Below are positions 13,557-64,000 of a stretch of DNA of 64,000 bases, piece by piece; position 1 is the stretch's first letter; the number at the start of each line of letters is the position of its first letter. Position numbers and translations under genes: made by a program. A model generated the notes under the pieces. It was not told the origin of the DNA. It ran no database searches and saw only the letters and a program-made list of their open reading frames with translations. This DNA comes from Streptomyces globisporus (GTDB lineage Bacteria; Actinomycetota; Actinomycetes; Streptomycetales; Streptomycetaceae): NCBI GenBank assembly GCA_014649555.1, contig BMTG01000007.1, positions 62,001 through 126,000 of the forward strand, written 5' to 3'.

Positions 13557-13727
13557 CGCGTCTTCGCGCAGCGGTCGCCCGATTCCCCCCACCCGTACCG
13601 CCACAACCACCGGGACTCAGCCATCACGCAGAAGCCCGAGCACCAGCCCGCACGGAAACCGGCCCAGCGGCCGGCACAGAAACGGACCCGGTCACCGCGA
13701 CCGGCCAGGGAAAGGAAACGAGCCTCC

Positions 13728-14102
13728 ATGGCGAACACCGAAGCGACACTGAAGGAAGCGATGAGCTCGATCGAGGGCGCCACGGGTGCCGCCCTCGTCG
13801 ACTACACCAGCGGCATGGCCCTGGGCACGCTGGGCGGCGGCAAGGACTTCAACCTGGAGGTCGCCGCCGCGGGCAACACCGACGTGATCCGCGCCAAGCT
13901 CCGCACCATGGAGCACCTGGGGCTCAAGGAGGAGATCGAGGACATCCTCATCACCCTGAACACCCAGTACCACCTGATCCGGCTGCTCAAGACCCGTGGC
14001 GGCAACGGCCTGTTCCTCTACCTGGTGCTCGACGCGAGCCGGGCGAACCTGGCGATGGCCCGCCACCAGCTGAAGAAGATCGAGGCCGAGCTGGAGGTCT
14101 GA
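13728..14102 (+). CDS. Roadblock/LC7 domain protein 3
   Basis: The 124-aa product is a clean single roadblock/LC7 domain: [38 protein letters not shown] and [28 protein letters not shown]. It is most like the first protein of this group, and differs by lacking the acidic insertion. The start ATG has AAAGGAAA upstream. A gap of 171 bp separates it from the coupled trio, so it may have its own promoter. Streptomyces conservons pair roadblock proteins with a sensor kinase, a DUF742 protein and a GTPase; none of those is present here. Confidence 0.85.
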
Positions 14103-14132
14103 CGCGTCCGGGGCGGCGCGAGGCCGGGGCTC

Positions 14133-22718: not shown

Positions 22719-22804
22719 TGGTGCCCGGAGCCGGACTCGAACCGGCACGCCCCCGAGGGGCAGCGAGGTTTAAGCTCGCCGTGTCTACGTTCCACCATCC
22801 GGGC
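22719..22804 (-). tRNA. bldA: tRNA-Leu (anticodon UAA), bldA
   Basis: On the minus strand a complete 86-nt class II tRNA can be folded. The acceptor arms are GCCCGGA and TCCGGGC, followed by A and an encoded CCA. The anticodon stem is GCGAG/CTCGC around loop CTTAAAC, giving anticodon TAA. A variable arm (TGCCCCTCGGGGGCG region) and a T-arm with GGTTCGAGTCC are present. It is the only tRNA that reads UUA efficiently in Streptomyces, where it controls development and antibiotic synthesis through rare TTA codons. The sequence matches my memory of S. coelicolor bldA. Confidence 0.95.
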
Positions 22805-32600: not shown

Positions 32601-35125
<2,525 letters not shown>

Positions 35126-49366: not shown

Positions 49367-52300
49367 CTACGACCCCAAAATCGTCGTCAGGAACTCGCCT
49401 GTCCACGCCAGTAGTTCGCGGCCGATGACCGGCTTGCCGCCGATCTTGCCCGTCGTCGGGCGGGGGACCAGGATCTGGTGGGCGGCGGGCTTGATGACCG
49501 TCTTGGGGTGCAGGCGCTTCAGGCGCAGTTCCTGGGACTCGCGCAGCTCCACCGGGGCGAAGCGGATGTTGGAGCCCTGGAGGACGATCTCGCCGACTCC
49601 GCAGGCGCGGGCCAGCATGCGCAGGCCCGCCACCAGGAGGAGATTCTCGACCGGTTCGGGCAACGGGCCGTAGCGGTCGGTGAGTTCCTCGCGGACCGCT
49701 CGGATGTCGTCCTCCGAGTTGGCCGAGGCGATCGCGCGGTACGCCTGGAGGCGCAGGCGCTCGCCGGGGGCGTAGTCGTGCGGGACGTGCGCGTCGACCG
49801 GGAGCTCGATCTTGACCTCCAGCGGGGGCTCTTCCTGCTCGCCCCCCTCCATCTGGGCCCGGTAGTCGGCGACGGCCTCGCCGACCATGCGGACGTACAG
49901 GTCGAAGCCGACGCCCGCGATGTGGCCGGACTGCTCGCCGCCGAGCAGGTTGCCCGCGCCGCGGATCTCCAGGTCCTTCATCGCCACGTACATGCCCGCG
50001 CCCATCTCCGTGTGCTGGGCGATCGTCGCCAGGCGTTCGTGGGCCGTCTCGGTGAGGGGCTTCTCCGGGGGGTAGAGGAAGTAGGCGTAGCCACGGTCGC
50101 GGCCTCGGCCCACCCGGCCGCGCAGCTGGTGGAGCTGGGACAGGCCGAAGTTGTCGCCGCGCTCCACGATCAGGGTGTTGGCGTTGGAGATGTCGATGCC
50201 GGACTCGACGATCGTCGTGGAGACCAGGACGTCGAACTTCTTCTCCCAGAAGTCCACCACGACCTGTTCCAGGGCCTGTTCGGACATCTGGCCGTGTGCT
50301 GTCGCGATGCGCGCCTCGGGGACGATCTCGCGGAGGCGGGCGGCCGCGCGGTCGATGGACTCGACCCGGTTGTGGATGTAGAAGACCTGGCCCTCGCGCA
50401 GCAGTTCACGGCGGATCGCCGCGCCGATCTGCTTCTCCTCGTACGGGCCGACGAAGGTGAGCACCGGGTGGCGCTCCTCCGGCGGGGTGGTGATCGTGGA
50501 CATCTCGCGGATGCCGGTGACCGCCATTTCGAGCGTACGGGGGATGGGCGTCGCGGACATGGTCAGGACGTCCACGTTGGCGCGGAGCTTCTTCAGCTGC
50601 TCCTTGTGCTCGACGCCGAACCGCTGCTCCTCGTCCACGATGACCAGGCCGAGGTCCTTGAACTTCGTCTCGGAGGAGAAGAGGCGGTGCGTGCCGATGA
50701 CCAGGTCGACCGAGCCGTCCTTCAGGCCTTCCAGGGTTGCTTTGGATTCCGTTTCCGACTGGAAGCGGCTCAGCGCCCTTACGTTGACCGGGAATTGGGA
50801 GTAGCGCTCGGTGAACGTGCCGTAGTGCTGCTGGACGAGGAGCGTGGTGGGGACCAGGACCGCCACCTGCTTGCCGTCCTGGACCGCCTTGAACGCCGCC
50901 CGGACCGCGATCTCCGTCTTGCCGTAGCCGACGTCGCCGCAGATCAGCCGGTCCATCGGGACCGTCTTCTCCATGTCCTCCTTGACCTCGGCGATCGTGG
51001 AGAGCTGGTCGGGGGTCTCCGCGTACGGGAAGGCGTCCTCCAGCTCCCGCTGCCAGGGGGTGTCCGCGCCGAAGGCGTGGCCGGGGGCCGCCATGCGCGC
51101 GCTGTACAGCTTGATCAGGTCGGCGGCGATCTCCTTGACCGCCTTCTTCGCCCGCTGCTTCGTCTTCGTCCAGTCCGCGCCGCCGAGCCGGTGCAGCGTC
51201 GGGGCCTCGCCGCCGACGTACTTGGTGACCTGTTCCAGCTGGTCGGTCGGGATGTAGAGGCGGTCGCCGGGCTGGCCGCGCTTGGCCGGGGCGTACTCGA
51301 CGAGCAGATACTCGCGGGTCGCGCCCTGGACCGTGCGCTGCACCATCTCCACGTACCGGCCGACGCCGTGCTGTTCGTGGACGATGTAGTCGCCGACCTC
51401 CAGCGTCAGCGGGTCGATCGTCTTCCTGCGGCGGGCCGGCATCCGGCCCAGGTCCTTGGTGGCCGTGCGCTGGCCGGTCAGGTCGGTCTCGGTGAGCACC
51501 GCCAGCTTCAGCGCCGGGTCGACGAAGCCCTGCTCGATCGCCCCGCAGGAGACGTGGACCAGGGACGGGGTGATCTCGGTGAGGTCCGCGTCGAGGCGGG
51601 CCGCGATGCCCTCGCCGCTCAGCACCTCGACCGTACGGGAGGCGAGCCCCTGGCCCTCCGTGACGTACACCGTGCGCCAGCCGTCGGCCAGCCAGCCCTT
51701 GGTGTCGGCGAGCGCCCGGGCGGTGTCGCCCCGGTACGCCTCGGGGGCGTGCATGGAGAGCTGGAGGGTGTCGTCGTCGTGGTCGGCGGCGTCGGCCGCG
51801 AACGGCGAGAGCGACCACCACATCATGTCCAGCTCGCGGGCCCGGTCCCGGACGTCCGCGATGCCCCACAGCGAGGCCGCGCCCACGTCGATCGGGGCCT
51901 CGCCGCCGCCCGCGCTCGCCGCCCAGGACGCCTGGAGGAACTCCTGGCTGGTGGCGACCAGGTCGGCCGCCCGCGTCCGCACCCGCTCCGGGTCGCAGAC
52001 GATCGCCATCGCGTCCTTCGGCAGGACGTCGAGCAGCAGCTCCATGTCGTCGACCAGGACCGGGGCCAGCGACTCCATGCCCTCGACCGCGATGCCCTCG
52101 GCGATCTTGCCGAGCAGCTCGCCCAGCTCCGGATGGGCCTCGGCGAGCGCTGCAGCCCGCTCCCGCACCTGGTCGGTCAGCAGCAGCTCGCGGCAGGGCG
52201 GGGCCCACAGCCCGTGCGCGGCGACCTCCAGCGACCGCTGGTCGGCGATCTTGAAGTAGCGGATCTCCTCGACCTCGTCGCCCCAGAACTCCACCCGGAG

Positions 52301-52900
52301 GGGGTGCTCCTCGGTCGGCGGGAAGACGTCCAGGATCCCGCCGCGTACGGCGAACTCACCGCGCTTCTCGACCAGTTCCACCCGGGAGTACGCGGCGGCA
52401 GCCAGCGCGTCCACCACCTCCCCCAGGTCCGCGCTCTGCCCGCCCGCAAGGCTCACCGGCTCCAGCTCGCCGAGCCCCTTGACCTGCGGCTGGAGCACGG
52501 AGCGGATCGGGGCGACGACGACCGAGACCGGGCCGGTCTCCGGGTCGTCCTCGCGGGGGTGCGCCAGGCGGCGCAGCACGGCGAGGCGGCGGCCGACGGT
52601 GTCCGAGCGGGGCGAGAGCCGCTCGTGCGGCAGGGTCTCCCAGGAGGGGTACTCCGCGACCGTGTCCGGCGGCAGCAGCGTGCGCAGGGCCGAGGCCAGG
52701 TCCTCGGCCTCGCGGCCCGTGGCGGTGACGGCCAGCACGGTCCGGCCGGTCTGCCGGGCCAGCGCGGCTACGGCGAACGGGCGCGCGCCGGGCGGGCCGA
52801 CCAGGTCGACATGGGCCCGGTGCCCGTCTCCGGCGGCCTTCACCGCCTCGGCGAGCGCCGGGTCCGTAACGACGACATCCAGCAGACCGTGCAGGCTCAT
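49367..52900 (-). CDS. mfd: Transcription-repair coupling factor
   Basis: Mfd removes RNA polymerase stalled at DNA damage and recruits UvrA. The 1177-aa protein has an N-terminal UvrB-homology region, the RNA-polymerase interaction domain (about 480-560: PLTLEVGDYIVHEQHGVGRYVEM), and a RecG-like DNA translocase: Walker A CGDVGYGKTEIAVRAAF, DEEQRFG as the Walker B, TMSATPIPRTLEMA (motif III), and QLRGRVGRGRDRGYAYF (motif VI). The TRCF C-terminal domain closes it. Length is normal. The start ATG was taken over longer frames that cross the regulatory gap. Confidence 0.97.
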   Translation of the reverse strand: MSLHGLLDVVVTDPALAEAVKAAGDGHRAHVDLVGPPGARPFAVAALARQTGRTVLAVTATGREAEDLASALRTLLPPDTVAEYPSWETLPHERLSPRSDTVGRRLAVLRRLAHPREDDPETGPVSVVVAPIRSVLQPQVKGLGELEPVSLAGGQSADLGEVVDALAAAAYSRVELVEKRGEFAVRGGILDVFPPTEEHPLRVEFWGDEVEEIRYFKIADQRSLEVAAHGLWAPPCRELLLTDQVRERAAALAEAHPELGELLGKIAEGIAVEGMESLAPVLVDDMELLLDVLPKDAMAIVCDPERVRTRAADLVATSQEFLQASWAASAGGGEAPIDVGAASLWGIADVRDRARELDMMWWSLSPFAADAADHDDDTLQLSMHAPEAYRGDTARALADTKGWLADGWRTVYVTEGQGLASRTVEVLSGEGIAARLDADLTEITPSLVHVSCGAIEQGFVDPALKLAVLTETDLTGQRTATKDLGRMPARRRKTIDPLTLEVGDYIVHEQHGVGRYVEMVQRTVQGATREYLLVEYAPAKRGQPGDRLYIPTDQLEQVTKYVGGEAPTLHRLGGADWTKTKQRAKKAVKEIAADLIKLYSARMAAPGHAFGADTPWQRELEDAFPYAETPDQLSTIAEVKEDMEKTVPMDRLICGDVGYGKTEIAVRAAFKAVQDGKQVAVLVPTTLLVQQHYGTFTERYSQFPVNVRALSRFQSETESKATLEGLKDGSVDLVIGTHRLFSSETKFKDLGLVIVDEEQRFGVEHKEQLKKLRANVDVLTMSATPIPRTLEMAVTGIREMSTITTPPEERHPVLTFVGPYEEKQIGAAIRRELLREGQVFYIHNRVESIDRAAARLREIVPEARIATAHGQMSEQALEQVVVDFWEKKFDVLVSTTIVESGIDISNANTLIVERGDNFGLSQLHQLRGRVGRGRDRGYAYFLYPPEKPLTETAHERLATIAQHTEMGAGMYVAMKDLEIRGAGNLLGGEQSGHIAGVGFDLYVRMVGEAVADYRAQMEGGEQEEPPLEVKIELPVDAHVPHDYAPGERLRLQAYRAIASANSEDDIRAVREELTDRYGPLPEPVENLLLVAGLRMLARACGVGEIVLQGSNIRFAPVELRESQELRLKRLHPKTVIKPAAHQILVPRPTTGKIGGKPVIGRELLAWTGEFLTTILGS

Positions 52901-53317: not shown

Positions 53318-54325
53318 GTGGGCGAGAACGAGATGTCTGTCTTCGGGGTCCCGGAGGCCGAGGAAGAGATCTACCGGCACTTCCTGCGCAATCCCGGATC
53401 CCGCGCCGACGACCTCCACCTCCTGCTGCACTCCCGGCCGGGCGAGACCCGGGCCCGGATCGCCCGGCTCCAGAAGCTGGGGCTGCTGCACACCGAGGAC
53501 GCGGAGCGGCGGATCTTCCCGGCGGACCCCGAGGTGGCGCTCGCCCGGCTGGTGGACGTCCGGCTGGCCGCGCTCCATCAGGAGCTGCAGCGCGTCACCC
53601 GGTCGCGGCACGTCATTGACGGTCTACGCGCGGAGCAGGGAGCCCGTTCGCCCCATCCGCAGGGCATCGAGCAGCTGGAGGGGCTCGCCCAGATCCGTAA
53701 CCGGATCGACGACCTCGCGTTCTTCGCCCGGGACGAGATCCTGTCCGTGGAGCCGTACGCCCGGCTGTCGGCGGAGAACATCGCCCGGTCCCGCCCGCTG
53801 GACCTGCGCTGCCTGCGGCGCGGGGTGCGGATCCGCAACGTCGTCTCCAGCACGGCGCTGAAGGACCCGCCGACCGCCGCCTATCTGCGCGAGCTGGCCG
53901 AGCACGGGGCGGCGATCCGGGTGACGCCGGACACCACGGAGCGGCTGCTCGTCTACGACCGCCGGGCGGCGCTCGTCCCGCTGGACCCGCGCGACACCTC
54001 ACGGGGCGCGCTCCTGGCCCATCGCAGCGGCCTAGTCTCCAACATCATCTCCCTGTTCGAACGGATCTGGGACCAGGCCGACGACCTGTCCCGGGCCGTC
54101 GGCGGCGCGGAGAGCGGTGAGGGCACGGCCGCCCCGCGGCCCTCCGGCATCGAGCGCCGGGTGCTCGTGTCGATGTGCACGGTGGGCAAGGACGAGGCGG
54201 GCGCGCGGGAGCTGGGGGTGTCGGTGCGGACCTACCGGCGCCATGTCGCCGACCTGATGCAGACGCTCGGCGCGGCGAGCCGGGCGCAGGCCGCGCTGCT
54301 GGCCCGGGAACGCGGCTGGATCTGA
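53318..54325 (+). CDS. LuxR-type regulator of the RiPP cluster
   Basis: The 335-aa protein has an N-terminal winged-helix (TrmB-like) segment (EEEIYRHFLRNPGSRADDLHLLLHSRPGETRARIARLQKLGLLH), a middle helical/PLD-like sensor part (about 90-260), and a C-terminal LuxR-type HTH (about 275-330: LVSMCTVGKDEAGARELGVSVRTYRRHVADLMQTLGAASRAQAALLARERGW). This layout is common in pathway regulators of Streptomyces peptide clusters. The GTG at 53318 has GGGGG before it; ATG at 53333 is an alternative. It is convergent with the biosynthetic genes and probably controls the precursor promoter. Confidence 0.82.
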   Translation: MGENEMSVFGVPEAEEEIYRHFLRNPGSRADDLHLLLHSRPGETRARIARLQKLGLLHTEDAERRIFPADPEVALARLVDVRLAALHQELQRVTRSRHVIDGLRAEQGARSPHPQGIEQLEGLAQIRNRIDDLAFFARDEILSVEPYARLSAENIARSRPLDLRCLRRGVRIRNVVSSTALKDPPTAAYLRELAEHGAAIRVTPDTTERLLVYDRRAALVPLDPRDTSRGALLAHRSGLVSNIISLFERIWDQADDLSRAVGGAESGEGTAAPRPSGIERRVLVSMCTVGKDEAGARELGVSVRTYRRHVADLMQTLGAASRAQAALLARERGWI

Positions 54326-54376
54326 TCGCCCGGGGGCTCCTGGGGCCCGACCTCGTCCCAGCGAAAGGCCCTGGGC

Positions 54377-54649
54377 CTACCGCTCCTCCGCCCAGCCGCA
54401 CAGGGCCGCGTCCGCCAGGACGCGGGACACCGCCCGCCGTACCGCCGACGCGTCCGCCGCCCCGGCCAGCTCGAACCGCAGCACCACCCGGTCCTGCCCC
54501 ACCTCGGGGTGGCAGGCCCAGTGCCCCGGGAGCAGTCCCAGCAGCCGTACGACGGTGGTCCACCCGGTGGGGGCCGCGCGGTCGCGGCGTACGACGACGA
54601 CGTCGGCGACTCCGGCCCCGGGGATGCGGGCGGTCCGGTGGGCCGTCAT
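54377..54649 (-). CDS. Small protein of the RiPP cluster, unknown
   Basis: A 90-aa protein (VVVVRRDRAAPTGWTTVVRLLGLLPGHWACHPEVGQDRVVLRFELAG...RRAVSRVLADAALCGWAEER) with alternating beta and helix pattern, and no membrane helix or metal motif. It overlaps the M20 gene stop by 4 bp (ATGA), so it is made together with it. I do not recognise it. It could be a structural partner of the hydrolase, or a second small binding domain for the peptide. Confidence 0.7.
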   Translation of the reverse strand: MTAHRTARIPGAGVADVVVVRRDRAAPTGWTTVVRLLGLLPGHWACHPEVGQDRVVLRFELAGAADASAVRRAVSRVLADAALCGWAEER

Positions 54650-56157
54650 GACGCCGTCCCCCGGTCCCGCGCGGCCCCCGGGTCCAGCACCTGCCGGGCC
54701 GCCGTCGCCAGGGCCGTGATGCCGACGGGCAGGGCGGCCCGGACGTCGGGGGCGAAGCCGGGTGCGTGGTTGGGCGGTACGGGGCCGCCTCCGGCGCGGG
54801 CCGCCCGCCAGGGGCCGGCTCCGGTGGTCCCGAGCATCCAGTACGCGGCCGGGACCCCGCCCGCCGCGAAGTGCGGGAAGTCCTCGGTGGCCGCGGACCC
54901 GGCGAGGTCCAGCACCCGGCCGGGGCCGAGGAGCGCCTCGTGGACCCGGCGCACCCGGGCCGTGAGCGCCGGGTCGGGGCGCAGGACGGGCGAGCGGGCG
55001 GTGACGGTGAATTCGGGGGCGCGCGGGGCTCCGAAGGCGGCGGCCTCGGCCCGGACGGCCCGTTCGGCGGCGGCCACCAGCCGGTCGAGCGCCGGTTCCG
55101 TGAACGCCCGGATGGTGAGGGAGAGTTCGGCGTGGTCGGGGGTGATGTTGCCGCGCTCGCCCGCCCGCACCGAGCCCACCGTGAGCACGGCCTGCTCGGC
55201 GGGCACGGTCTCCTCGGCCACCACGGTGCGCAGCCGCAGCACGGTGGCGGCGGCCATCAGGACCGGGTCGAGGTTGAGGTGCGGGGTGGCCGCGTGTCCT
55301 CCCCGGCCGTGCAGGACCGCCTCGACGGAGATGCCGCCCGCCATCAGGGGCTCCCCGCCGGCCGGGGCGTGGGCGAGGGTCCCGGCGGGGAGCGGGGCGG
55401 CGTGCTGGGCCAGGACCGCGTCGGGGACGCCGAACCGCTCGTACAGCCTGCCGTCCTCCAGCAGGGACCGGGCCCCGCTCAGCGTCTCCTCCTCGGGCTG
55501 GCCGACGACGAGGACCGTGCCCCGCCAGCCGTCCCGGGACGCGGCGAGGAGGGCCACCGCGCCGGTGACCGCCGCGATGTGCAGGTCGTGGCCGCAGGCG
55601 TGCATGACGCCGGGCACGGTGCTGGCGTACGGGAGTCCGGTGGCCTCGGTGACGGGCAGCGCGTCGAGTTCGGTGCGCAGGAGCACCGTGGGGCCGGGGC
55701 CGTTGCGCAGGACCCCGACGAGTCCGTGGCCGCCGCCCACGGAACGGGTGACCGTGCAGCCGTGTTCCGCGAGCCGGGCGGCGAGGCGGTCGGCGGTGCG
55801 GTGTTCGTGGGCGGAGAGTTCGGGGTGGGCGTGCAGGTCGAGGTAGAGCTCGACGGCGGAGCGGAGCAGTTGGCGCGGCAGGGGGCCGGACGCCGGTGAC
55901 GTGACGCCCGCGGCCTGCCTCCCGGTCGCCCGGGCGTCGGCCGTGGCTTCCCCGCCCGCCCTGTGCCCGCCGGCTGCGGCTTCCCGGCGCGCGCCGTGCC
56001 CGTCGGCCGTGGCTTCCCCGCCGGTCGCGTGCCCGCCCTCCGCGGCCTCCCCGCCGGTCTCGCACCCGTCCACCGCGTGCCCACCGCCCGCCGCCGTTCC
56101 GCCCCCCGTGCGCCCGTCGTCGTCCGCGTTCTCCGTCGCTCTCGCCGCTGTGACCAC
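54646..56157 (-). CDS. M20D-family amidohydrolase of the RiPP cluster
   Basis: The 503-aa enzyme carries an M20D (hippurate hydrolase/amidohydrolase) domain from about 95: LDLHAHPELSAHE, MHACGHDLHIAAVTGA (metal His/Asp), GQPEEETLSGARSLL (catalytic Glu), HGRGGHAATPHLNLDP (dimerisation His) and SAATEDFPHF. The first 90 residues are an odd Gly/Ala/Glu/His-rich tail with repeated GGEA, GGHA, GREA and RATGR phrases, not seen in the family. The GTG start follows GAGGTG; an ATG 12 bp upstream is possible. In a RiPP cluster it may trim the leader remnant or remove an N-acyl group. Confidence 0.85.
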   Translation of the reverse strand: MVTAARATENADDDGRTGGGTAAGGGHAVDGCETGGEAAEGGHATGGEATADGHGARREAAAGGHRAGGEATADARATGRQAAGVTSPASGPLPRQLLRSAVELYLDLHAHPELSAHEHRTADRLAARLAEHGCTVTRSVGGGHGLVGVLRNGPGPTVLLRTELDALPVTEATGLPYASTVPGVMHACGHDLHIAAVTGAVALLAASRDGWRGTVLVVGQPEEETLSGARSLLEDGRLYERFGVPDAVLAQHAAPLPAGTLAHAPAGGEPLMAGGISVEAVLHGRGGHAATPHLNLDPVLMAAATVLRLRTVVAEETVPAEQAVLTVGSVRAGERGNITPDHAELSLTIRAFTEPALDRLVAAAERAVRAEAAAFGAPRAPEFTVTARSPVLRPDPALTARVRRVHEALLGPGRVLDLAGSAATEDFPHFAAGGVPAAYWMLGTTGAGPWRAARAGGGPVPPNHAPGFAPDVRAALPVGITALATAARQVLDPGAARDRGTAS

Positions 56158-56231
56158 CGCGCACCTCATCTCTGCTCAACGAGCCTGCTCCGTACGGCTG
56201 TCACGTGCCGCGCCGCCGTCCTGCCACCGGA

Positions 56232-56272
56232 TGTCAGCGATGTGACAGCGAAACCGCGGCCGATCTGACAGC
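56232..56272. promoter_or_regulatory. Candidate regulator sites upstream of the precursor
   Basis: TGTCA-GCGATG-TGACA is an inverted repeat (56232-56247), and TGACAGC occurs again at 56266-56272, 82 bp before the precursor start. Between the M20 and precursor genes, which are divergent. Confidence 0.45.
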
Positions 56273-56353
56273 GGCCGCCCCTGCAATGGGTCCAGCACCC
56301 GGGCACCGGACCGGATCGGCCGGCCGGACCCCCACGAGACCAGGGAGACCGCC

Positions 56354-56530
56354 ATGACCCCCAAGACCGAACTCGCCACCCTCGCCGACGAGATCCTGGA
56401 GCTGGAGTCGGAGACCTTCGAGATCTCGGACTACTCCGACGCCTCCGAGGTCGTTCTCGCCGGTTCCACGTCGTGTTCCTCGACGTCGACCTGCTCCAGC
56501 ACCACCAGCACCACCTCCTGCAGCGCCTGA
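56354..56530 (+). CDS. RiPP precursor peptide, thiopeptide/azole type
   Basis: This 58-aa gene is too short for most gene finders. ATG with AGGGAGA upstream. The leader (1-37) is acidic with 10 Asp/Glu, and has hydrophobic spacing LADEILELESETFEISDYSD, ending in SEVVLAG. The core (38-58) reads STSCSSTSTC then SSTTSTTSCSA: 10 Ser, 7 Thr, 3 Cys and a terminal Ala. Cys would become thiazoles through the YcaO enzyme; Ser/Thr would become oxazoles or dehydroamino acids through the LanB-like pair. The shape fits the family recalled as thiazolylpeptide-type bacteriocin precursors. It is the only gene on the plus strand among divergent biosynthetic genes. Confidence 0.92.
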   Translation: MTPKTELATLADEILELESETFEISDYSDASEVVLAGSTSCSSTSTCSSTTSTTSCSA

Positions 56531-56558
56531 GACCGCTGCTCGGCCCGCTCGTGCGCCG

Positions 56559-56583
56559 GCCCCCTCCGTCGGTCGGAGGGGGC
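56559..56583. terminator. Terminator between precursor and YcaO genes
   Basis: Perfect 10-bp stem (GCCCCCTCCG and complement), 5-nt loop; 29 bp after the precursor stop and 25 bp from the convergent YcaO gene stop. May limit or process both transcripts. Confidence 0.85.
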
Positions 56584-56607
56584 TCTCGTACGTGGTGCGC
56601 GGGCCGG

Positions 56608-58635
56608 TCACGGGAACGGGTGCGGGACGGCCTTGATCTCCGCCTCCGGCAGGTCGTCGGCCCGCCGGCCCGCCGCCCGCGGCGCGGTCCGCAGCCGGGG
56701 CATGTGCAGAGCCCGCTGTCTGCTCCAGCCGAAGTCCAGCGGCAGCAGTCCGGGAACGACGGTGGAGACGGTGTGCAGGCCCATCCGGTGCTGCTCCGGC
56801 GTCGTCTGGTCGACGGCGATGACGTCGTACCCCGCCCCCGTCAACCCGTCCCGCAGCAGCCGCAGATCGTCCAGCAGATCGCCGGTGCGGGGGCGCAGCG
56901 GCTCCCAGTCGGCGAACGCCTCCGCCATCGGAAGCACGGCGGCCGGCTCCAGGTACTCGGCGGCGTGCCGGGCCATCGACGGCAGTCCGTAGAGCTGGGC
57001 GTGGTCCTTGAGGTGCCGGACCTTGGTGAAGTCCCGCTCCATATCCTCCAGTTCGGCCCGGCGTTCGGCGACCTGGTAGGGCAGGTGCGGGATGTAGGTG
57101 AGCACTTCGGACAGGGCCGCCTCCACCGTGTCCGACGGGTCGAAGCCGGCCGCCGCGCTGAAGGACAGCGTGCCGGGGCCGCCGTCCCTGCGCACCGCGA
57201 GGGCGGTGACGACGGGGACCGCCAGATCCATCCGGGTGTCGAAGGCGTGCACGTCGTAGCCGTGCAGGGCAGCCCGGTCGAGCATCGAGCGGACGGCGGG
57301 AGCGGTCGCGCCGGTGAGGTCGATCTCGGTGAGGCGCGCCCGTCCGTACCAGGCGAGGAGGAAGGCGTCCCGCTCGACGAGTTCGAGGAGGCCGAAGAGG
57401 ATCGCCTCCTCGAGACTGCCGCCGGTGGCGCAGCCGTTGGAGCATTCGAAGACGAAGTTGTCCGCGTCGACGCCCGCGCTGTAGTGGGCGAGCCGGGCCG
57501 GGACGAGGATCGGGGCGTCGTCGCGCAGGGAGTGGCCCCAGACCCACGGAATGGGCCGGTCCGGGTCGAAGGGGCTGACCAGGGGGTCGGTGGCGTACGT
57601 CCGAGGGGTGTAGAAGCCGCAGTCGGCCGGGTTCAGGGCCTGGCCGGTGAGGTTGCGGTAGCTGTCGAGGACCGGGGTCGTGCCGCGTCGGCGGTGGGTA
57701 CCGGCGTACCGCTCCAGGCCCTCCAGGTGGGCGAGGGTGCGGCTGGTGGCGTACCGGTTGGCCTGGCCGCTCCAGGTGACGTCGTTGAGACCGGCGTACC
57801 CGCGCACGAAGTGGGTCCCGGCGACCGGGGCGGTGGTGGTGGATGTGGGGTTGATCCAGATGTCGGAACCGAGCGCACCGCAGACCGGGTTGGCGAGGGC
57901 GGCGGTCGGCAGCGGGTAGGAGTCCAGGGTGCGCAGGCGGTACGTGCCGGGGTCCGGTTTGGGGGTGGGGGCCAGGGTCATACGGGCCGCCTCCGCCGTG
58001 TCCGGGACCTCGTGGACGCAGGCGGGGCACAGGGGTTCGGGCAGCAGCGGGAAGGTGGCCGTGGCGAGGGTGACCAGGTCGACCCGGGTGACCTGGGGAA
58101 GCGCCCGGTCGGCGGGGGTCGCGGCGGCGCCCTCGGGGCCGGTGCGCGCCTCGGGGCCGGCGGAGGGGGCAGAGCCGGTGGGGCCCTCGGGGCCGGGCGC
58201 TCCCGGGGTGCTGCGAGGGCCCGTGAAGACCGCGCTGTACGTCGCCCACACCGCGTCCACCGCGTACTCCGTGAGCACCGGCCAGTCCACGGCCCCCTGC
58301 GGCTCGTGCCCCAGTTCCAGGGCCTCCCGCTCCGACCGGCTCCGCAGCCGCTGCCAGCGCATCGCCAGGCACTGGCCGCAGACGGCGGCATCGGGTCCGC
58401 CGCCCCAGGGGCCGATGAGGACGGCCCGGGAGGTCAGCTGCACGGTGGCGGCGGGCCGGGTGCCGGCGTACGGGTCCGGGTGGCCGAAGCCGAGGACGTC
58501 GGCGGCCCCGAGGGGGACCACGTACGGCGCGGGCGGGCCGCCCTCGCCGGGCCCGTCCGCGTGGCGTGCCGACAGCGCGGACTGGAGCCGGGCGCGCGCC
58601 GCGTCCAGCGGGGTCGGGGCGGTGGCCGTCGTCAT
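56608..58635 (-). CDS. YcaO cyclodehydratase with fused N-terminal leader-binding region
   Basis: The 675-aa enzyme should cyclise Cys (and perhaps Ser/Thr) of the core to azolines using ATP. Residues 1-230 resemble an Ocin-ThiF/C-protein remnant with a zinc site: CxxC at 86/89 (VCGQC) and 203/206 (LCPAC). The YcaO domain follows from about 230 (DIWINPTSTTTAPVAGTHFVRGYAGLNDVTWSGQANRYATSRTLAHLEGLERYAG; ECSNGCATGGSLEEAILFGLLELVERDAF). It ends in PHPFP, the C-terminal PxPxP motif of azoline-forming YcaOs. ATGA overlap with the ABC permease. A dehydrogenase to turn azolines into azoles is not seen in the window. Confidence 0.92.
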   Translation of the reverse strand: MTTATAPTPLDAARARLQSALSARHADGPGEGGPPAPYVVPLGAADVLGFGHPDPYAGTRPAATVQLTSRAVLIGPWGGGPDAAVCGQCLAMRWQRLRSRSEREALELGHEPQGAVDWPVLTEYAVDAVWATYSAVFTGPRSTPGAPGPEGPTGSAPSAGPEARTGPEGAAATPADRALPQVTRVDLVTLATATFPLLPEPLCPACVHEVPDTAEAARMTLAPTPKPDPGTYRLRTLDSYPLPTAALANPVCGALGSDIWINPTSTTTAPVAGTHFVRGYAGLNDVTWSGQANRYATSRTLAHLEGLERYAGTHRRRGTTPVLDSYRNLTGQALNPADCGFYTPRTYATDPLVSPFDPDRPIPWVWGHSLRDDAPILVPARLAHYSAGVDADNFVFECSNGCATGGSLEEAILFGLLELVERDAFLLAWYGRARLTEIDLTGATAPAVRSMLDRAALHGYDVHAFDTRMDLAVPVVTALAVRRDGGPGTLSFSAAAGFDPSDTVEAALSEVLTYIPHLPYQVAERRAELEDMERDFTKVRHLKDHAQLYGLPSMARHAAEYLEPAAVLPMAEAFADWEPLRPRTGDLLDDLRLLRDGLTGAGYDVIAVDQTTPEQHRMGLHTVSTVVPGLLPLDFGWSRQRALHMPRLRTAPRAAGRRADDLPEAEIKAVPHPFP

Positions 58636-59387
58636 GACTTGTCGCTCCAGCGGAAGGTCTTCAGCGCCACCGCGCCGAGGACGAGGGCGAATCCGGCGAG
58701 GACGGCGCAGGCGACTCCGATGTCCGTCAAGGAGCCGCCGCCGGTCAGCGCGCCGGAGACCCCGTCGTTGAGGTAGCGCAGCGGCAGGATCCGGGAGAGG
58801 GTCTGCATCCAGCCGGGCATGGCGTCCAGCGGGAAGAACGAGCCGGAGAGGAACGCCATGGGAATCATCAGGCAGTTGGCCACGGCGGCGACCGCTTCGG
58901 GGGTCTTCGCATAGCTGCCGACGATGACGCCGAGCGCGAGGAACGCGGTGATGCCGAGCACCAGCACGGGCAGGGCGAGCGGCCAGCGGCCGTCCAGCTG
59001 AAGGCCGAAGGAGGGCAGCAGCGCCACGGCGACGAACAGGGCCGCCTGGACGGCCCCGATGGCCAGGGCCAGGACGTAGCGGGAGGCGAGGACGGCGGAG
59101 ACGGGTGTGGGTGTCATCCGGATCAGCCGGAGGATGTCGTCGCGCCGCCACTGCATGAGGACGAACCCGACACCGAAGACGGCGGCGTTGGCGACGCCCC
59201 AGGACAGCACACCGGGCGCGATGTAGTTGATGTAGGGCTTGCCGCTCTCCTCGACCGTCTGGCCGTGAAAGATCAGCCCGAAGACGACCAGGAAGATCAG
59301 CGGGAAGGCGAAGGTGAAGAAGAGGGTGGTGCGGTCGCGGGTGTAGGCCCGGTACCCGGCCTGGCTCAGCGCGGTGTAGGCGCTCAT
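58632..59387 (-). CDS. ABC-2 type permease of the RiPP exporter
   Basis: The 251-aa protein has six hydrophobic segments of the ABC-2 family. YTRDRTTLFFTFAFPLIFLVVFGLIF is the typical first amphipathic plus membrane segment and QWRRDDILRLIRMTPTPVSAVLASRYVLAL is the coupling helix region; SGSFFPLDAMPGWMQTLSRILPLRYLNDG comes before the last helix. It pairs with the ATPase gene 88 bp upstream to export the mature peptide or confer self-resistance. Start ATG with GGAGAC. Confidence 0.92.
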   Translation of the reverse strand: MSAYTALSQAGYRAYTRDRTTLFFTFAFPLIFLVVFGLIFHGQTVEESGKPYINYIAPGVLSWGVANAAVFGVGFVLMQWRRDDILRLIRMTPTPVSAVLASRYVLALAIGAVQAALFVAVALLPSFGLQLDGRWPLALPVLVLGITAFLALGVIVGSYAKTPEAVAAVANCLMIPMAFLSGSFFPLDAMPGWMQTLSRILPLRYLNDGVSGALTGGGSLTDIGVACAVLAGFALVLGAVALKTFRWSDKS

Positions 59388-59475
59388 GGGGTGTCTCCGT
59401 ATCGCTGGATCGCTGCGCGTGGGTGGGGCGGATCTTCCGGGGGCCGGAGCTTCCGGGGTGCGGATCTTCCGGGGA

Positions 59476-60438
59476 TCACGGCTGCGGGGCGCCGGTGCCG
59501 GTGCCGGTGAGCTCCAGGTACACGTCCTCCAGGCTCGCCGTCCTGGTCTGTACGCCCTGGAGCCCGGTGATCGCGTCGACGGCGGCCAGGACCCGGCCCG
59601 CGGCGAGGGTCTCCAGCACGAGCGAGCCGCCCTCCTCGGTCACCCGGTCCACGGCCTCGATGGCGCGGGCCTGTTCCGGGGTGAGGCGGCCGGCCGGGAC
59701 CAGCAGCCGGGTGGTCGGGGTGGCGGCGGCGATCAGCCGGCCGGGGCTGTCCAGCGCGGCGACCCGGCCCGCGACCATGATGGCGACGCGGTCGCAGAGC
59801 GCCTCGGCCTCGTCCAGGTGGTGGGTGGTGTAGACGATGGTGCGGCCCTGGCCCTTGAGGTCGCGCAGGACCTGCCAGAGCGAGCGGCGGGCCTGCGGGT
59901 CGAGGGCGGCGGTCGGCTCGTCCAGGAAGATCAGTTCGGGGTCGTGGACCAGGGCGGAGGCGATGGCGAGCCGCTGCCGCTGGCCGCCGGAGAGGTCGTC
60001 GACCCGGGTGTCGCCCTGCTCGGTGAGGCCGACGGAGGCGAGCGTGCGCTCGGCGGCCGCCGCGTCGCACCGGTAGAGGGCGGCCACGGTGGCCAGGTGT
60101 TCGCGGGCGGTCAGCCGGACGAAGAACGCGGAGGCCTGGGTCTGCACGCCGAGCCGGGGCAGCAGGGCGGTGTTGCGCAGCCAGGGGCTCTCCCCCAGGA
60201 CCGCCACCGTGCCGGAGTCGGCCCGCCGCTGGCCCTCCATGATCTCGACGAGGGTCGTCTTGCCCGCCCCGTTGGGCCCGAGCAGCCCGAAGAACTCCCC
60301 GCGTTCGACGGTCAGCGAGACCCCGTCGACGGCCCGGGAGGCCCCGTACGTCTTGCGGACCTCGGTCAGGGCGACGGCGGGCCCGGCGGAGGGACCTGCC
60401 GGGGGGTCCTGCGGGGGGCGGGGGGCGGTGGACGTCAT
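59476..60438 (-). CDS. ABC transporter ATPase of the RiPP exporter
   Basis: The 320-aa ATPase has Walker A GPNGAGKTT, signature LSGGQRQRLAIASALV, Walker B LIFLDEPTAALD, and a C-terminal region of about 90 residues as in drug-resistance (DrrA-like) ATPases. ATG behind GAGGAGAG. A Pro-rich N-terminal tail of about 30 residues precedes the domain. The 88 bp after it contain repeated GGATCTTCCGGGG/GGAGCTTCCGGGG phrases. Confidence 0.93.
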   Translation of the reverse strand: MTSTAPRPPQDPPAGPSAGPAVALTEVRKTYGASRAVDGVSLTVERGEFFGLLGPNGAGKTTLVEIMEGQRRADSGTVAVLGESPWLRNTALLPRLGVQTQASAFFVRLTAREHLATVAALYRCDAAAAERTLASVGLTEQGDTRVDDLSGGQRQRLAIASALVHDPELIFLDEPTAALDPQARRSLWQVLRDLKGQGRTIVYTTHHLDEAEALCDRVAIMVAGRVAALDSPGRLIAAATPTTRLLVPAGRLTPEQARAIEAVDRVTEEGGSLVLETLAAGRVLAAVDAITGLQGVQTRTASLEDVYLELTGTGTGAPQP

Positions 60439-60481
60439 GGAACTCTCCTCGATGGGGAACTGCGGGCCCGGGGAGGGCACT

Positions 60482-61618
60482 TCAGGCGGTCAGCAGATGG
60501 TGGACGCCCGCGACGGCCGCCGCGACGGCGGCGGCCAGGACGAGGACCGTGGCCACCGCGTAGAGGGGGTAGGCGATACGGGCCCGGCGCGGGTAGGCGG
60601 CCGCCTCCGGGGAGCGGCGCAGGGCGAGCCGCAGATAGCCGCCCGCGGAGGCGGCGAGGCCGGTGGCCCCGGCGAGCTGGCACGCGATCTTGTAGCCGTC
60701 CAGCGGGGGCAGCGGCACGAGCATCGTGAACGCCTGGACGCTGCCGAGGAACAGGAGGGCGGCGAAGGCCTCGTGCGTCGCGTCGTCGAGCGGGGCGAAC
60801 AGCCACAACGCGCAGAACGGGAGCAGGAAGACCAGGTTCATCACCGCGCCGGCGGCGGCCGTGGCGATGCGGTGCCGGCGGGTGCCGAGGTAGAGGTAGT
60901 CGTCGACCGTGCAGTACATGATGACGGCGGGCAGCCGCCACCGCAGCCCGATCTCGGCGACCCGCCCGCCGTGGTGCCGGGCCACCACGCCGTGCGCCAG
61001 CTCATGGAGGGCGGTGCTCACCCAGAGCAGGACCGCCGTGCTGGTCAGCAGGACGGGATGGGTCATCAACCCCCGCACAGCCAGCAGAAGTTCACCGGAC
61101 CGGGCGACGACCACCGCCTCCATGGCGAGGACGAGGGCGAGCAGCGGCACCATGACCGCGGGCGCGAGCAGGAAGCCGAAGACCCGGTGGAGGCGGGCGG
61201 TGGTGGCGTCGGCGTCGGCCACCAGGGGGAGGGAGCCCCGCAGGAGGGTGCGCTTCTCCGGCGGGACGGAGGAGGGGGCGGGCTTCGGCGGTGCGGAGGT
61301 GGGAGCGGGCTTCGGCTCGGGGGCGCCGGCCAGCAGCCCCTTCGCGCCCAGCAGGGCCAGGAGCCGCTGCCAGTGGGCGTCGCCCAGCCGTCGCCCGTAC
61401 TCCCCCGCGTACGCCTCGCCGATCTCCGCGAGGCTCCGCTCCCCGTCCATGCGGGCGATGAGGAAGTGCTCCTTGGGACCGACCTTGAAGGAGTTCCCGG
61501 TCCCGGCGTCCTTGATCAGGTGGACGGTCGCGGCCCCGTCCAGCAGCGGATCGCTGAGCAGCACGCGGGGACGCAGCGCGGGGCGGTAGGCGGCGAGCGC
61601 CCCGGGGGCCGCGCTCAC
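60482..61618 (-). CDS. PqqD-like domain fused to M50 membrane metalloprotease
   Basis: The 378-aa protein has an N-terminal PqqD-like RiPP recognition region (about 30-96: HFLIARMDGERSLAEIGEAYAGEYG, ending LLALLGAKGLL), a Pro/Ala-rich linker (97-122), and an M50/site-2-protease-like membrane domain. The zinc motif HELAH is at 205-209 and the second motif reads PLPPLDGYK. Six or so hydrophobic segments are seen. The recognition domain should bind the precursor leader, and the protease could cut it within or at the membrane during export. GTG start, with the LanB-like stop overlapping as GTGA. Confidence 0.85.
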   Translation of the reverse strand: MSAAPGALAAYRPALRPRVLLSDPLLDGAATVHLIKDAGTGNSFKVGPKEHFLIARMDGERSLAEIGEAYAGEYGRRLGDAHWQRLLALLGAKGLLAGAPEPKPAPTSAPPKPAPSSVPPEKRTLLRGSLPLVADADATTARLHRVFGFLLAPAVMVPLLALVLAMEAVVVARSGELLLAVRGLMTHPVLLTSTAVLLWVSTALHELAHGVVARHHGGRVAEIGLRWRLPAVIMYCTVDDYLYLGTRRHRIATAAAGAVMNLVFLLPFCALWLFAPLDDATHEAFAALLFLGSVQAFTMLVPLPPLDGYKIACQLAGATGLAASAGGYLRLALRRSPEAAAYPRRARIAYPLYAVATVLVLAAAVAAAVAGVHHLLTA

Positions 61619-62697
61619 GCGGACTCCTTGAGGACCCGGCCCAGGACGTGGCTGAGGTAGGCCTCGTCGCGGATGGTGACGTGCAGCCGGTTGTTCGTCA
61701 TGTGCATGTACGGGGAGAGCAGCAGCGGCAGCGCCACCGCGGGGTCGGTGACCCGCTCGTCCCGCTCGCCGTCCCAGGACCGGAACACCAGGTCCCCGTC
61801 GACGGCCAGTTTCCGGGCCCTGTACCGCAGTTCGGCGCAGTGCTCGGCCCAGCCCGCCAGGGACCCGGGCAGCGAGCGGGCGCTCCCGGGCGGTGCCGTG
61901 GCGGCCCGGACCCGCGCGAACCGGTCCCGCAGCCCGTCCGCCGTCCGGGCGTAGTTGGTGTCGTACTCCTCCGTGCCGATGAAGCCGGTGCCGGGAAACG
62001 CCCGGCGCCAGAACGCGTAGTAGTCGTCGAGGTACTGGGTCAGCTCCGCCCGGTCCGGCAGGAAGGTGGACGACATGACCATCATCAACTGGGCTGCTGT
62101 ACCCAGCAGTACGGTGCGCAGGTGGAGGTTCTTGGTGGCGAGGGCGTCGATCACCAGGTCACTGGAGTGCCGGAAGTGCCACTCGGCCAGCTCGATCCCG
62201 GCGGCCCCGCCGTACTTCCCGAACTCCGGTTCGTACGGCTCCCGGTGGCGGGAGTTGTTGGGGCGCAGGTTCATCCGGCCCTGCTCGTCCGTGTAGTGGC
62301 CGCGCTCGCTGCCGGGGAACTCGATCTCGAAGAGGGTGTTGTAGAAGTCGTTGAGGAACCCGGAGTCGACCTCGTACAGCGCGGGCCGCTCGGCGAGGAA
62401 CGCGTCCACGGCCCGCTCGGTGCGGCGGGCGACTTCCGGCTCGGCGGCGGTCGTCGACGGCTTCAGGCGCAGCCGTACGTGGGGTCCCTCCAGCCAGTAG
62501 TTGATGAAGAAGTACCCGGCGAGCAGGCCGTCCGCCTCCAGATCCGCGACCAGGGGGCGGACGCAGTTCAGGAGGAAGGGGCGGGGGTTGGCGGCGTAGA
62601 AGACGTGGGTGGCCTGCCAGGCGCCGGTCGTCCCGGTCCCCGTCGTTCCGGTCCCCGTCGTTCCGGTCCCGGTCGTTCCGGTGGTGGGCGGTGTCAT
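61615..62697 (-). CDS. Thiopeptide-type (SpaB_C-like) dehydratase/cyclase domain protein
   Basis: The 360-aa protein is the stand-alone C-terminal LanB domain of thiopeptide and azole-peptide clusters: HVFYAANPRPFLLNCVRPLVADLEADGLLAGYFFINYWLEGPHVRLRLKP, then EYEPEFGKYGG-type YEPEFGKYGGAAGIELAEWHF and SPYMHMTNNRLHVTIRDEAYLSHVL. It would either remove glutamate from glutamylated Ser/Thr (elimination) or catalyse the [4+2] ring closure of thiopeptides; sequence reading alone cannot tell. The start is followed by TGTTGTG-type repeats (about 5-26). ATGA overlap with the upstream gene. Confidence 0.9.
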   Translation of the reverse strand: MTPPTTGTTGTGTTGTGTTGTGTTGAWQATHVFYAANPRPFLLNCVRPLVADLEADGLLAGYFFINYWLEGPHVRLRLKPSTTAAEPEVARRTERAVDAFLAERPALYEVDSGFLNDFYNTLFEIEFPGSERGHYTDEQGRMNLRPNNSRHREPYEPEFGKYGGAAGIELAEWHFRHSSDLVIDALATKNLHLRTVLLGTAAQLMMVMSSTFLPDRAELTQYLDDYYAFWRRAFPGTGFIGTEEYDTNYARTADGLRDRFARVRAATAPPGSARSLPGSLAGWAEHCAELRYRARKLAVDGDLVFRSWDGERDERVTDPAVALPLLLSPYMHMTNNRLHVTIRDEAYLSHVLGRVLKESA

Positions 62698-64000
62698 ACG
62701 GTCCTCCTGCGGACGGGTGCGGCCGTCTCCACGGCCAGTTCGGCGACATGGCGGCCGGGGCCCGAGACGGTGGGCAGCGCGTCCTCGTCCGGCAGCATCT
62801 CCCGGAACACCACGCGGGCTTCCGGGGACTTGATCAGCGCCTCGAAGGCGGACAGGGACAGCGGGCTGTCGAAGTCGAGGTACTGCGGTTTGGCCCCGGT
62901 GGCGCCCCGGGCCCCGGTGTCCGACACGGTCGCGAAGACCCGGTCGGGCAGCCCGTGGGTCCGCCGGAAAGCGTGCCAGTCCAGGAACCAGCCGTCCTCC
63001 GGTGTGCCCGGCCGGTGCAGCGGCAGGACGGTCGCCGGGGCGCTCCAGCTGCGCCGGCTCAGCACGAGCGAGCCGTGTCGCACCCGGGGCCGCCCGGTGA
63101 CCCCGCCGCGCGGCTCGGCCTCGGGAACGCCCGCCCACACGTTGAGCGGGGCCATCGAGGTCGGGGAGAGGAGGAGCAGGGTGCGGGGCAGTTCGGGCAG
63201 GGCGAGGGGGACGAGGTAGCCGAGGTAGACGGGGATCACCTCGCGGTCCAGGCGGGCCGAGCGCAGGACGAGCCGGTCGGCCCCCGGGTCGTGGACGAGG
63301 TGGAGATCGTCCAGATCGATCCTGAACTCCGGCTCCAGCGTGCCGCGTTCGCCGGGGCAGACAATCTCGTACGGGGTCAGCCGGCCGTGCAGGTTGAGGT
63401 TGCTGGTGACCGGACCGCCGGTGACCTCGGCGAGAACGGCCCCTTCGGGCACGAGCGTTCCCGTGTCCGCGAGGAGCTGTTCGCCGAGACCGTCGAAGAG
63501 CTGGGTGAACCGGCTGAACGGGAACGACACCCCGCCGTAGGACCGGTTGAGGACGACGAGCGGGTCGCCCAGGCGGTCGGCGATCTGGACGTGGTGACTC
63601 ATCGGGGCGAAGTCGGCCGGTGGGAGGTCCAGTTCACCGGCGACCGCGTCCAGGAACGCGTCGTCGAGCCACACCTCGACCGCCCCCGGCTCAGCCGCCT
63701 CCGCCAGTGCGGCCATCCGGGCGGTGAAGGTGCGGCGCGCGGCGTCGAGGGCGCGCAGCCGGGGCAGGCCGAGCCAGTTGACCTCCGGGACGTAGGTGCC
63801 GTCGGCGTCGTACGGGGTGCGGGAGGCGGTGAACGTCATGTACTGGTCGAAGAAGTCCTCGTGGAAGTCGTGGACCAGCTTCAGCAGGTCGTCGCAGCGG
63901 CCGCCGCGTCCGTAACGCGCCAGGAAGAAGCCCTGGAAGGTGATCCGCTGCGGGAGGGTGAGGTCGAAGGCGGGCAGCACCCGCTCCACGGCCGCCAGCG
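62694..64000 (-). CDS. Lantibiotic dehydratase (LanB N-domain), 5' part outside window
   Basis: The visible 431+ residues are the second half of a LanB-type glutamylating dehydratase: VLPAFDLTLPQRITFQGFFLARYGRGG, FHEDFFDQYMTFTAS, LNRSYGGVSFPFSRFTQLFD, LNLHGRLTPYEIVCPGE and FATVSDTGARGATGAKPQYLDFDSPLSL. Its frame stays open to the right edge of the window, so the start lies beyond 64000. It transfers glutamate from glutamyl-tRNA to Ser/Thr of the core. The separate C-terminal domain encoded next shows the split LanB layout of thiopeptides and goadsporin. Confidence 0.92.
   Translation of the reverse strand, partial: LAAVERVLPAFDLTLPQRITFQGFFLARYGRGGRCDDLLKLVHDFHEDFFDQYMTFTASRTPYDADGTYVPEVNWLGLPRLRALDAARRTFTARMAALAEAAEPGAVEVWLDDAFLDAVAGELDLPPADFAPMSHHVQIADRLGDPLVVLNRSYGGVSFPFSRFTQLFDGLGEQLLADTGTLVPEGAVLAEVTGGPVTSNLNLHGRLTPYEIVCPGERGTLEPEFRIDLDDLHLVHDPGADRLVLRSARLDREVIPVYLGYLVPLALPELPRTLLLLSPTSMAPLNVWAGVPEAEPRGGVTGRPRVRHGSLVLSRRSWSAPATVLPLHRPGTPEDGWFLDWHAFRRTHGLPDRVFATVSDTGARGATGAKPQYLDFDSPLSLSAFEALIKSPEARVVFREMLPDEDALPTVSGPGRHVAELAVETAAPVRRRTV

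Follow-up and report, generated by a model that had tools for sequence, protein, structure and literature searches.

A widespread Streptomyces gene cluster with a near-invariant Ser/Thr/Cys core peptide and predicted enzymes for a linear azole- and dehydroamino acid-containing product

What kind of peptide is made by a gene cluster that joins a precursor of a thiazolylpeptide-type family to an enzyme set with likeness to that of the linear peptide goadsporin? The cluster in question lies in Streptomyces globisporus (assembly GCA_014649555.1; genome of 8.25 Mb) at one end of a 64-kb stretch of DNA, hereafter the window, that comprises positions 62001–126000 of contig BMTG01000007.1. An earlier note, made from the letters of the window, had proposed a cluster for a ribosomally synthesized and post-translationally modified peptide (RiPP) with azoles and dehydroamino acids, located beside mfd, likely uncharacterised and following both thiopeptide and goadsporin-type logic. 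The family matches of the encoded enzymes support this product class, and the location proved correct. The goadsporin half of the proposed logic holds as well (YcaO, SagB, a split LanB and no [4+2] enzyme), while the thiopeptide half fails in its defining sense. We consider it likely that the product is a linear azole- and dehydroamino acid-containing peptide, made by goadsporin-like logic with enzymes of thiopeptide lineage and without a pyridine. The surprising part is the core peptide, which consists nearly entirely of Ser, Thr and Cys and is near-invariant throughout a widespread cluster.

Genes were called by codon-position GC on the window and adjoining stretches of the contig, and 18 proteins were scanned against each of Pfam and NCBIfam (Table 1). 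At the proposed place of every gene named in the earlier note, there is an open frame whose composition is that of coding DNA, and the cluster continues past the end of the window, as had been predicted, with a SagB-type dehydrogenase, a second YcaO protein, an F protein and a regulator of the Streptomyces antibiotic regulatory protein (SARP) type. The dehydrogenase, which was to be sought there, starts about 1.5 kb beyond the window end. Both YcaO proteins have an N-terminal cyclo_dehyd_2 domain, which in YcaO-1 contains two CxxC pairs recognized by eye, and the N-terminal domain of the F protein matches the PbtF recognition element (E 2.3e-7). Neither a LanC-type cyclase nor a LanM-type dehydratase with a DUF4135 domain was found among the scanned proteins. 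A fourth YcaO gene of the source genome is located outside the cluster (contig C3:543757-544797).

The defining enzyme of thiopeptides is a [4+2] pyridine synthase of the TbtD/TclM type, and the class of the only SpaB_C protein of the cluster, the C part of its split LanB, is therefore central to our question. Matches to NF045556 over cut-off occur in 7 of 295 genomes of the genus, each next to a second, TbtC-like SpaB_C protein. These seven TbtC-like/TbtD-like pairs served as controls, with the elimination role of the partner assigned by analogy with TbtC. The sole NF045556 match in the source genome scores 91.7 bits against a cut-off of 325, and among the NCBIfam models this is also the one that the cluster's SpaB_C protein matches best (92.7 bits; the seven TbtC-like proteins range from 52 to 102). 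A model of the cluster's own SpaB_C family ranks the TbtC-like above the TbtD-like protein in all seven pairs when best stretches are compared (e.g., 117.7 vs. 48.0 bits, with 57.3 vs. 45.1 bits as the narrowest case). Conversely, a model built from the seven TbtD-like rows gives these seven 538–616 bits, the TbtC-like proteins 31–97 bits and the related loci at most 89.4 bits. The latter are the best 80 of 155 relatives from a scan of genome contigs, 61 of them full-span (at least 20.9 kb) and 19 not. In a tree of 39 rows, composed of 25 family rows from a larger set and the seven proteins of each control type, each of the three groups forms one clade (supports 97/98, 97/97 and 100/100), with 4.0 changes per column on the branch that leads to the TbtD clade. 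Residues H324, E164 and E337 are kept in all 25 family and all seven TbtC-like rows, whereas all seven TbtD-like rows show Y, A and R instead; R69 is likewise kept in 25/25 and 7/7, but in only one of the seven TbtD-like rows. Such residues serve glutamate elimination according to work on NisB.

Judged by these comparisons, the only SpaB_C protein of the cluster is a TbtC-like enzyme of the glutamate-elimination type and not a pyridine synthase. All 80 related loci have one SpaB_C gene each, and the second SpaB_C protein that the earlier note expected past the window end was found neither in the cluster nor in the stretches read of these loci, and the same is true for TbtD. We conclude from this gene content that a pyridine synthase is absent, so that the name thiopeptide does not apply. 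Common descent with thiopeptides is what the leader family, the F-protein domain and the LanB N part point to, the last of which has as its nearest solved chains 6ec7 (TbtB), with 151 bits, and 9jhq (“Goadsporin biosynthetic protein”), which we take to be GodF, with 49 bits. The other PF14028 gene of the source genome is a SpaB_C-PCMT fusion that adjoins a LanC-like gene on a different contig (C3 near 199512; L009:49-3441), apparently as part of a class I lanthipeptide cluster that includes an isoaspartate methyltransferase.

The precursor was correctly described as rich in Cys, Ser and Thr. Since it matches both TIGR03892 (49.4 bits; cut-off 25) and NF033400 (40.9 bits; cut-off 30), it is not a chance open reading frame, and with these two NCBI families over cut-off it has a thiazolylpeptide-type leader. 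This leader ends in ...ETFEISDYSDASEVVLAG and is followed, at a putative border, by the 21-residue core STSCSSTSTCSSTTSTTSCSA, which apart from an Ile between two runs consists of Ser, Thr and Cys (20 of 21 residues). The unmodified core has a calculated monoisotopic mass of 1975.73, or 2032.75 if the Gly before it is included. Because Cys, Ser and Thr can each give an azole, the places at which these residues alternate would be the likeliest azoles. We read 70 precursor copies from 68 of the 80 related loci and found exactly STSCSSTSTCSSTTSTTSCSA in 33 of them, while the others differ at one to a few places. Counted over the 68 copies of equal length (two longer Micromonospora copies were left out), 16 of the 21 places never vary; places 1, 2, 4 and 20 swap within Ser, Thr and Cys, and place 12 has a single Ala instead of Ser, in one core of locus L011 that, like L066, has two precursor genes per cluster. 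Given the Cys at place 1 in 2 of the 70 copies, the border between leader and core may lie earlier.

This constancy does not extend to the DNA. Fixed Ser residues at several core places are encoded by both TCN and AGY codons, and among the 33 cores with identical residues, the 63-base coding sequences are separated by a median of 10 differences (maximum 23); the protein sequence of the core is therefore held by selection. The enzymes drift far more freely, with a median pairwise identity of 54.7–72.7% for ten enzymes and transporters (55–68 loci each) vs. 95.2% for the core (68 loci). We compared medians here, and the lowest value for YcaO-2 (41%) probably stems from truncated loci in which YcaO-1 was picked instead. 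More distant clusters hold to the theme of Ser/Thr/Cys-rich precursors with different sequences: One (G036) has two precursors with ends of this kind, another (G151; L160, frame ending at 8402) combines a single called YcaO gene with a precursor that ends in 26 consecutive Ser, Thr or Cys residues, and a third (G088) has a possible short precursor with a mixed end.

The cluster itself is common. A SpaB_C protein with at least 53% identity over more than 300 residues was found in 45 of the 295 genomes of the genus (own genome included), and additional carriers have the protein split in two pieces (G171) or at 39% and 45% identity (G088 and G151). In a phylum-wide sample of 396 genomes, YcaO-2 matches at E 1e-60 were found in five, our own included and all of one genus; the best 80 relatives also include Sphaerimonospora, Micromonospora and Actinacidiphila. 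The Sphaerimonospora row nests within Streptomyces rows (supports 96/80), which suggests transfer. Nine biosynthetic and transport genes are arranged in one order in 60 of the 61 full-span loci, with YcaO-1 at the same place in 60 and with both LanB parts in 61, SARP in 60, the precursor in 59 and M20 in 57 of them. The exception is a locus of Streptomyces sp. sk2.1 near mfd (L027, approximately 12161–14897), in which YcaO-1, permease, precursor and M20 are missing and which is probably a copy in decay. Within the stretches read, the 90-amino acid protein (25/61), the helix-turn-helix (HTH) regulator (27/61) and mfd (12/61) are much less frequent, and genes beyond SARP are common to only those three of nine genomes read further out that share the window's own neighborhood. 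The 90-amino acid protein, the HTH regulator and the mfd neighborhood therefore look like local additions. The regulator gene is real as described in the earlier note, and its LuxR-type assignment rests on a GerE match below cut-off (Table 1).

The promoter common to the precursor and M20 genes contains three direct repeats of the kind bound by SARP proteins, which recognize directly repeated heptamers, with 11 bp as the classical unit, according to excerpts of a published account (PMC10972967). The first two are the only pair of this motif at a spacing of 11, 22 or 33 bp in 98 kb (30 Markov controls: mean 0.03, maximum 1). An 11-bp pair with one mismatch allowed per repeat is present upstream of 49 of 69 precursor genes vs. 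13 of 3000 segments drawn at random from the same loci, and without mismatches the counts are 27/69 vs. 8/3000. The SARP protein of the cluster is the natural candidate regulator of this promoter. No TTA codons were found in 14 cluster genes, so that there is no sign of bldA control. A hairpin lies where the precursor and YcaO-1 genes converge and is a probable two-way terminator, and strong hairpins at this place also occur in most of the 12 relatives shown.

Table 1. Coordinates and supporting evidence for features of the window, the adjoining contig and strain CWH03. W marks window numbering continued beyond 64000 along the same contig.
Feature	Position	Strand	Evidence or remark
tRNA-Leu (taa) gene	22719-22804	-	
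c-di-AMP (cyclic di-AMP; ydaO/yuaA) riboswitch	34917-35093	-	66 bits
mfd, adjoins cluster	49367-52900		TIGR00580, 1057 bits
HTH regulator, LuxR-like C terminus, accessory	53318-54325	+	GerE 18.8 bits, below cut-off 23.5
90-amino acid protein, predicted ferredoxin-like fold, accessory	54377-54649	-	Model pLDDT (predicted local distance difference test) 88
M20 amidohydrolase/peptidase	54646-56169	-	PF01546 96.5 bits; TIGR01891 241.6 bits, over cut-off; start uncertain because first ~95 residues look low-complexity
Three SARP-type direct repeats TG(T/A)CAGCG	56232, 56243, 56266 (56232-56273)	+	Promoter common to precursor and M20
Precursor peptide gene, 58 amino acids	56354-56530	+	TIGR03892, NF033400
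Hairpin between precursor and YcaO-1 genes	56531-56607		-51.3 kcal/mol, z -2.99, 2/200 shuffles as low
YcaO-1, fused C + D cyclodehydratase, 675 amino acids	56608-58635	-	TIGR03604 336.6 bits; TIGR03882 84.4 bits
ABC-2 (ATP-binding cassette) exporter permease	58632-59387	-	PF01061, E 4.4e-29
ABC exporter ATPase, DrrA-like	59476-60480	-	PF00005; TIGR01188 218 bits, below cut-off 312
M50 membrane metalloprotease, candidate leader protease	60482-61618	-	PF02163 36.7 bits; NF041824 85 bits, below cut-off 300
LanB C part (SpaB_C), glutamate-elimination type by sequence	61615-62697	-	PF14028 136 bits
LanB N part, 904 amino acids, presumed glutamyl-tRNA dependent glutamylation enzyme	W62694-65408	-	PF04738 149.5 bits
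SagB-type dehydrogenase	W65465-67069	-	TIGR03605 126.7 bits, cut-off 78.4
YcaO-2	W67157-69178	-	TIGR03604 over cut-off
F protein, ocin-ThiF-like front, weak YcaO match at end	W69168-71318	-	
SARP regulator; cluster extends to about its end	W71465-73474	-	
Second azole cluster (C1) of strain CWH03	L178:11006-20000, L179:1-1664		Four small precursors with Gly/Ala-rich ends at L179:618-1664

Besides the cluster, the window contains a cyclic di-AMP riboswitch and a tRNA-Leu gene (Table 1), and no RNA families were found in the part of the window occupied by the cluster.

Taken together, these genes would allow for the following pathway. The F protein would hold the leader while the two YcaO cyclodehydratases convert part of the Ser/Thr/Cys run to azolines, possibly with Cys left to one of them and Ser/Thr to the other, and the SagB-type flavoenzyme would oxidize the azolines to azoles. 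The LanB N part would then glutamylate leftover Ser and Thr residues with Glu-tRNA as donor, and the SpaB_C protein would eliminate the glutamate to give dehydroalanine (Dha) and dehydrobutyrine (Dhb). We place azole formation before dehydration because of the goadsporin precedent: Passages of the goadsporin study report that GodF glutamylated only azole-bearing GodA and that Dha formed at Ser preceding an azole (PMC5303826). The M50 protease, perhaps together with M20, would remove the leader, and the ABC-2 pump would export a product in which no pyridine ring is made. Expression would be switched on by SARP via the heptamer repeats of the precursor/M20 promoter.

The M50 protein had been described as a PqqD-M50 fusion, and only its M50 part can be confirmed by a family match. 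PqqD is the top, non-significant match in 4 of 20 members of the M50 family (best E 0.03), with no such match for the window's own protein, and the best PDB match of the N-terminal domain has an E value of 0.35. Profile comparison revealed no significant likeness to the F-protein domain either. In a related M50 protein of strain CWH03 (cluster C1, see below), a whole-model PqqD match reaches E 0.0009 and 20.0 bits, below the cut-off of 23.4. The conserved N-terminal domain is therefore only suggestive of a PqqD-like recognition element. At two loci (G036, L159:11677-13866; and L086:11146-13500), a single long frame seems to fuse the M50 protease with the ABC ATPase, which would be in line with protease and export acting together.

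Several other products could be envisioned for this set of genes. That the one SpaB_C protein performs both glutamate elimination and [4+2] closure, giving the pyridine macrocycle of a true thiopeptide, seems distinctly unlikely to us. The leader family, the LanB N part nearest to 6ec7 and the PbtF-like F protein would all fit such a product, as would NF045556 as the top NCBIfam match of the SpaB_C protein, but 92.7 bits are far below the cut-off and well inside the TbtC-like range, and the diagnostic residues place the protein with the elimination enzymes. In addition, core place 1 is the usual pyridine Ser of thiopeptides, but is a Cys in two of our copies and could not give Dha there by this route. 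A linear peptide with azoles only, of which the mature form keeps no or just one or two dehydro residues despite the presence of LanB, is unlikely as well. Two dedicated YcaO proteins could use up most of the Ser, Thr and Cys residues, and the dependence of GodF on azoles described in parts of the goadsporin study (PMC5303826) implies that dehydration may be sparse; against this reading speak the presence of both LanB parts in all full-span loci and the intact diagnostic residues of the elimination protein in all 25 rows examined. Addition of Cys thiols to Dha or Dhb as in lanthipeptides would draw on a core that holds both Cys and dehydratable Ser/Thr, but appears extremely unlikely, since no LanC-type cyclase is found among the scanned proteins and the conserved YcaO/SagB set would consume the Cys residues.

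A further candidate is a known compound. Streptomyces pacificus CWH03 is described in excerpts of PMC8838263 as the producer of spongiicolazolicins A and B (29 and 28 residues), to which the title of a paper cited in PMC11767043 also ascribes them, and this strain carries our cluster (L037). We nevertheless regard it as very unlikely that spongiicolazolicin is the product, because CWH03 has a second azole cluster, C1 (Table 1), with genes for YcaO, a separate C protein, a C-SagB fusion, M50 and SpaB_C as well as four precursors with Gly/Ala-rich ends; a 930-amino acid frame at the place of LanB N has no family match. According to parts of PMC11583998, the spongiicolazolicin pattern is very similar to triplets of Dha/Dhb, heterocycle and unmodified residue. 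Such triplets need many residues other than Ser, Thr and Cys, which the C1 precursors contain and of which our core has 1 in 21. We therefore take C1 to be the probable spongiicolazolicin cluster. Length is no bar to the opposite assignment, as a 29-residue end can be cut from our precursor too. For the same reason, we dropped a 29-residue end as a mark of the C1 precursors: The cut had been chosen. The SpaB_C protein of C1 has the same residues at all four diagnostic places (H324, E164, E337 and R69) and by analogy provides a useful control for a linear product.

Some observations weigh against a linear azole- and dehydroamino acid-containing peptide made and regulated as proposed above. The product is a prediction from the genes. 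The leader in an NCBI thiazolylpeptide family and the LanB N part nearer to 6ec7 than to 9jhq speak for descent on the thiopeptide side, and the scan of 18 proteins revealed no acetyltransferase, whereas goadsporin has GodH. The SpaB_C tree has several long branches and no outside root. Besides the four diagnostic residues, N139 is shared by 24 of 25 family rows, but the exception row and the CWH03 control, with S at this place and H at 118, mean that columns 139 and 118 are not diagnostic. For the N-terminal domain of M50, none of the matches to known recognition elements is significant. Regarding regulation, the single repeat motif is not enriched in the 98 kb (20 observed vs. 34 expected), and 20 of 69 precursor upstream regions lack the 11-bp pair even when mismatches are allowed.

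If the favored linear product is correct, the names of the NCBI families (thiazolylpeptide-type bacteriocin) steer to the wrong molecule, as there would be no pyridine to be sought. The cluster is a common and deeply conserved RiPP locus, present in about one in six or seven genomes of the genus, for which we found no product. None is described, among the matches listed, in the open literature that we searched (subscription papers were mostly outside its scope), in agreement with the earlier view of the cluster as likely uncharacterised, and short strings of the core matched no paper there. The portions of PMC9576775, PMC10885120, PMC6306032 and PMC7616364 that were available hold nothing on it. 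An excerpt of PMC4018334 lists a “Thiopeptide-lantipeptide” cluster common to strain J1074 and sponge strains, without naming a product, and this unconfirmed candidate may be the present cluster. For a peptide of the antibiotic type, it seems unusual that the core stays invariant while the enzymes drift freely, and a peptide that is near-unchanged across many Streptomyces suggests an important role. One might go further and propose that nearly all of the 20-residue run is turned into azoles and dehydro residues by two YcaO proteins with separate jobs, and that selection keeps the peptide in Streptomyces and other actinomycetes because it serves them as a common signal or as an effector of development rather than as a diversifying antibiotic; this remains a speculative proposal that we see as somewhat unlikely in its entirety. 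In any case, on a core whose residues are nearly all potential substrates, the two-YcaO set offers a direct test of how the work is divided between thiazole formation, oxazole formation and dehydration.

Among known systems, goadsporin of Streptomyces sp. TP-A0584 (god) is similar in its combination of YcaO, a flavin mononucleotide dehydrogenase and a split LanB acting on a linear precursor without a [4+2] enzyme, as described in parts of PMC5303826 and PMC4603692. According to the former, it is made via GodD, GodE and the GodF/GodG pair, and LazF replaced GodG in vitro. In contrast, our cluster has two fused YcaO proteins and an F protein, M50 beside a plain ABC-2 pump in place of a peptidase-ABC transporter, a core of nearly only Ser, Thr and Cys, no acetyltransferase among the proteins scanned, and a LanB N part that, in the one sequence comparison with a God protein, is only distantly like 9jhq. 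Spongiicolazolicins share the linear azole peptide and, in their likely cluster, YcaO, a SagB-type dehydrogenase, SpaB_C and a related M50 protein, but differ in their precursors, the separate C protein and the C-SagB fusion, and both clusters coexist in CWH03. Thiomuracin-type thiopeptides are alike in leader family, LanB N part (near 6ec7) and the PbtF-like domain of the F protein, but our cluster has only an elimination-type SpaB_C protein and no TbtD. The dehydrazole carnazolamide also combines azoles and dehydro residues in one peptide, with dehydration there by a DUF4135 LanM-like enzyme instead of a split LanB (PMC10676384, in part). By gene logic, the nearest predicted class are the coryneazolisins of Corynebacterium (Cox et al. 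2015), for which passages of PMC4603692 describe two D proteins, LanB-like dehydratases, no [4+2] enzyme and nearly invariant Ser/Thr/Cys-rich precursors. Compared by description rather than by sequence, they differ from our cluster in their genus and in having one discrete and one fused D protein where ours has two fused ones and a core interrupted by Ile.

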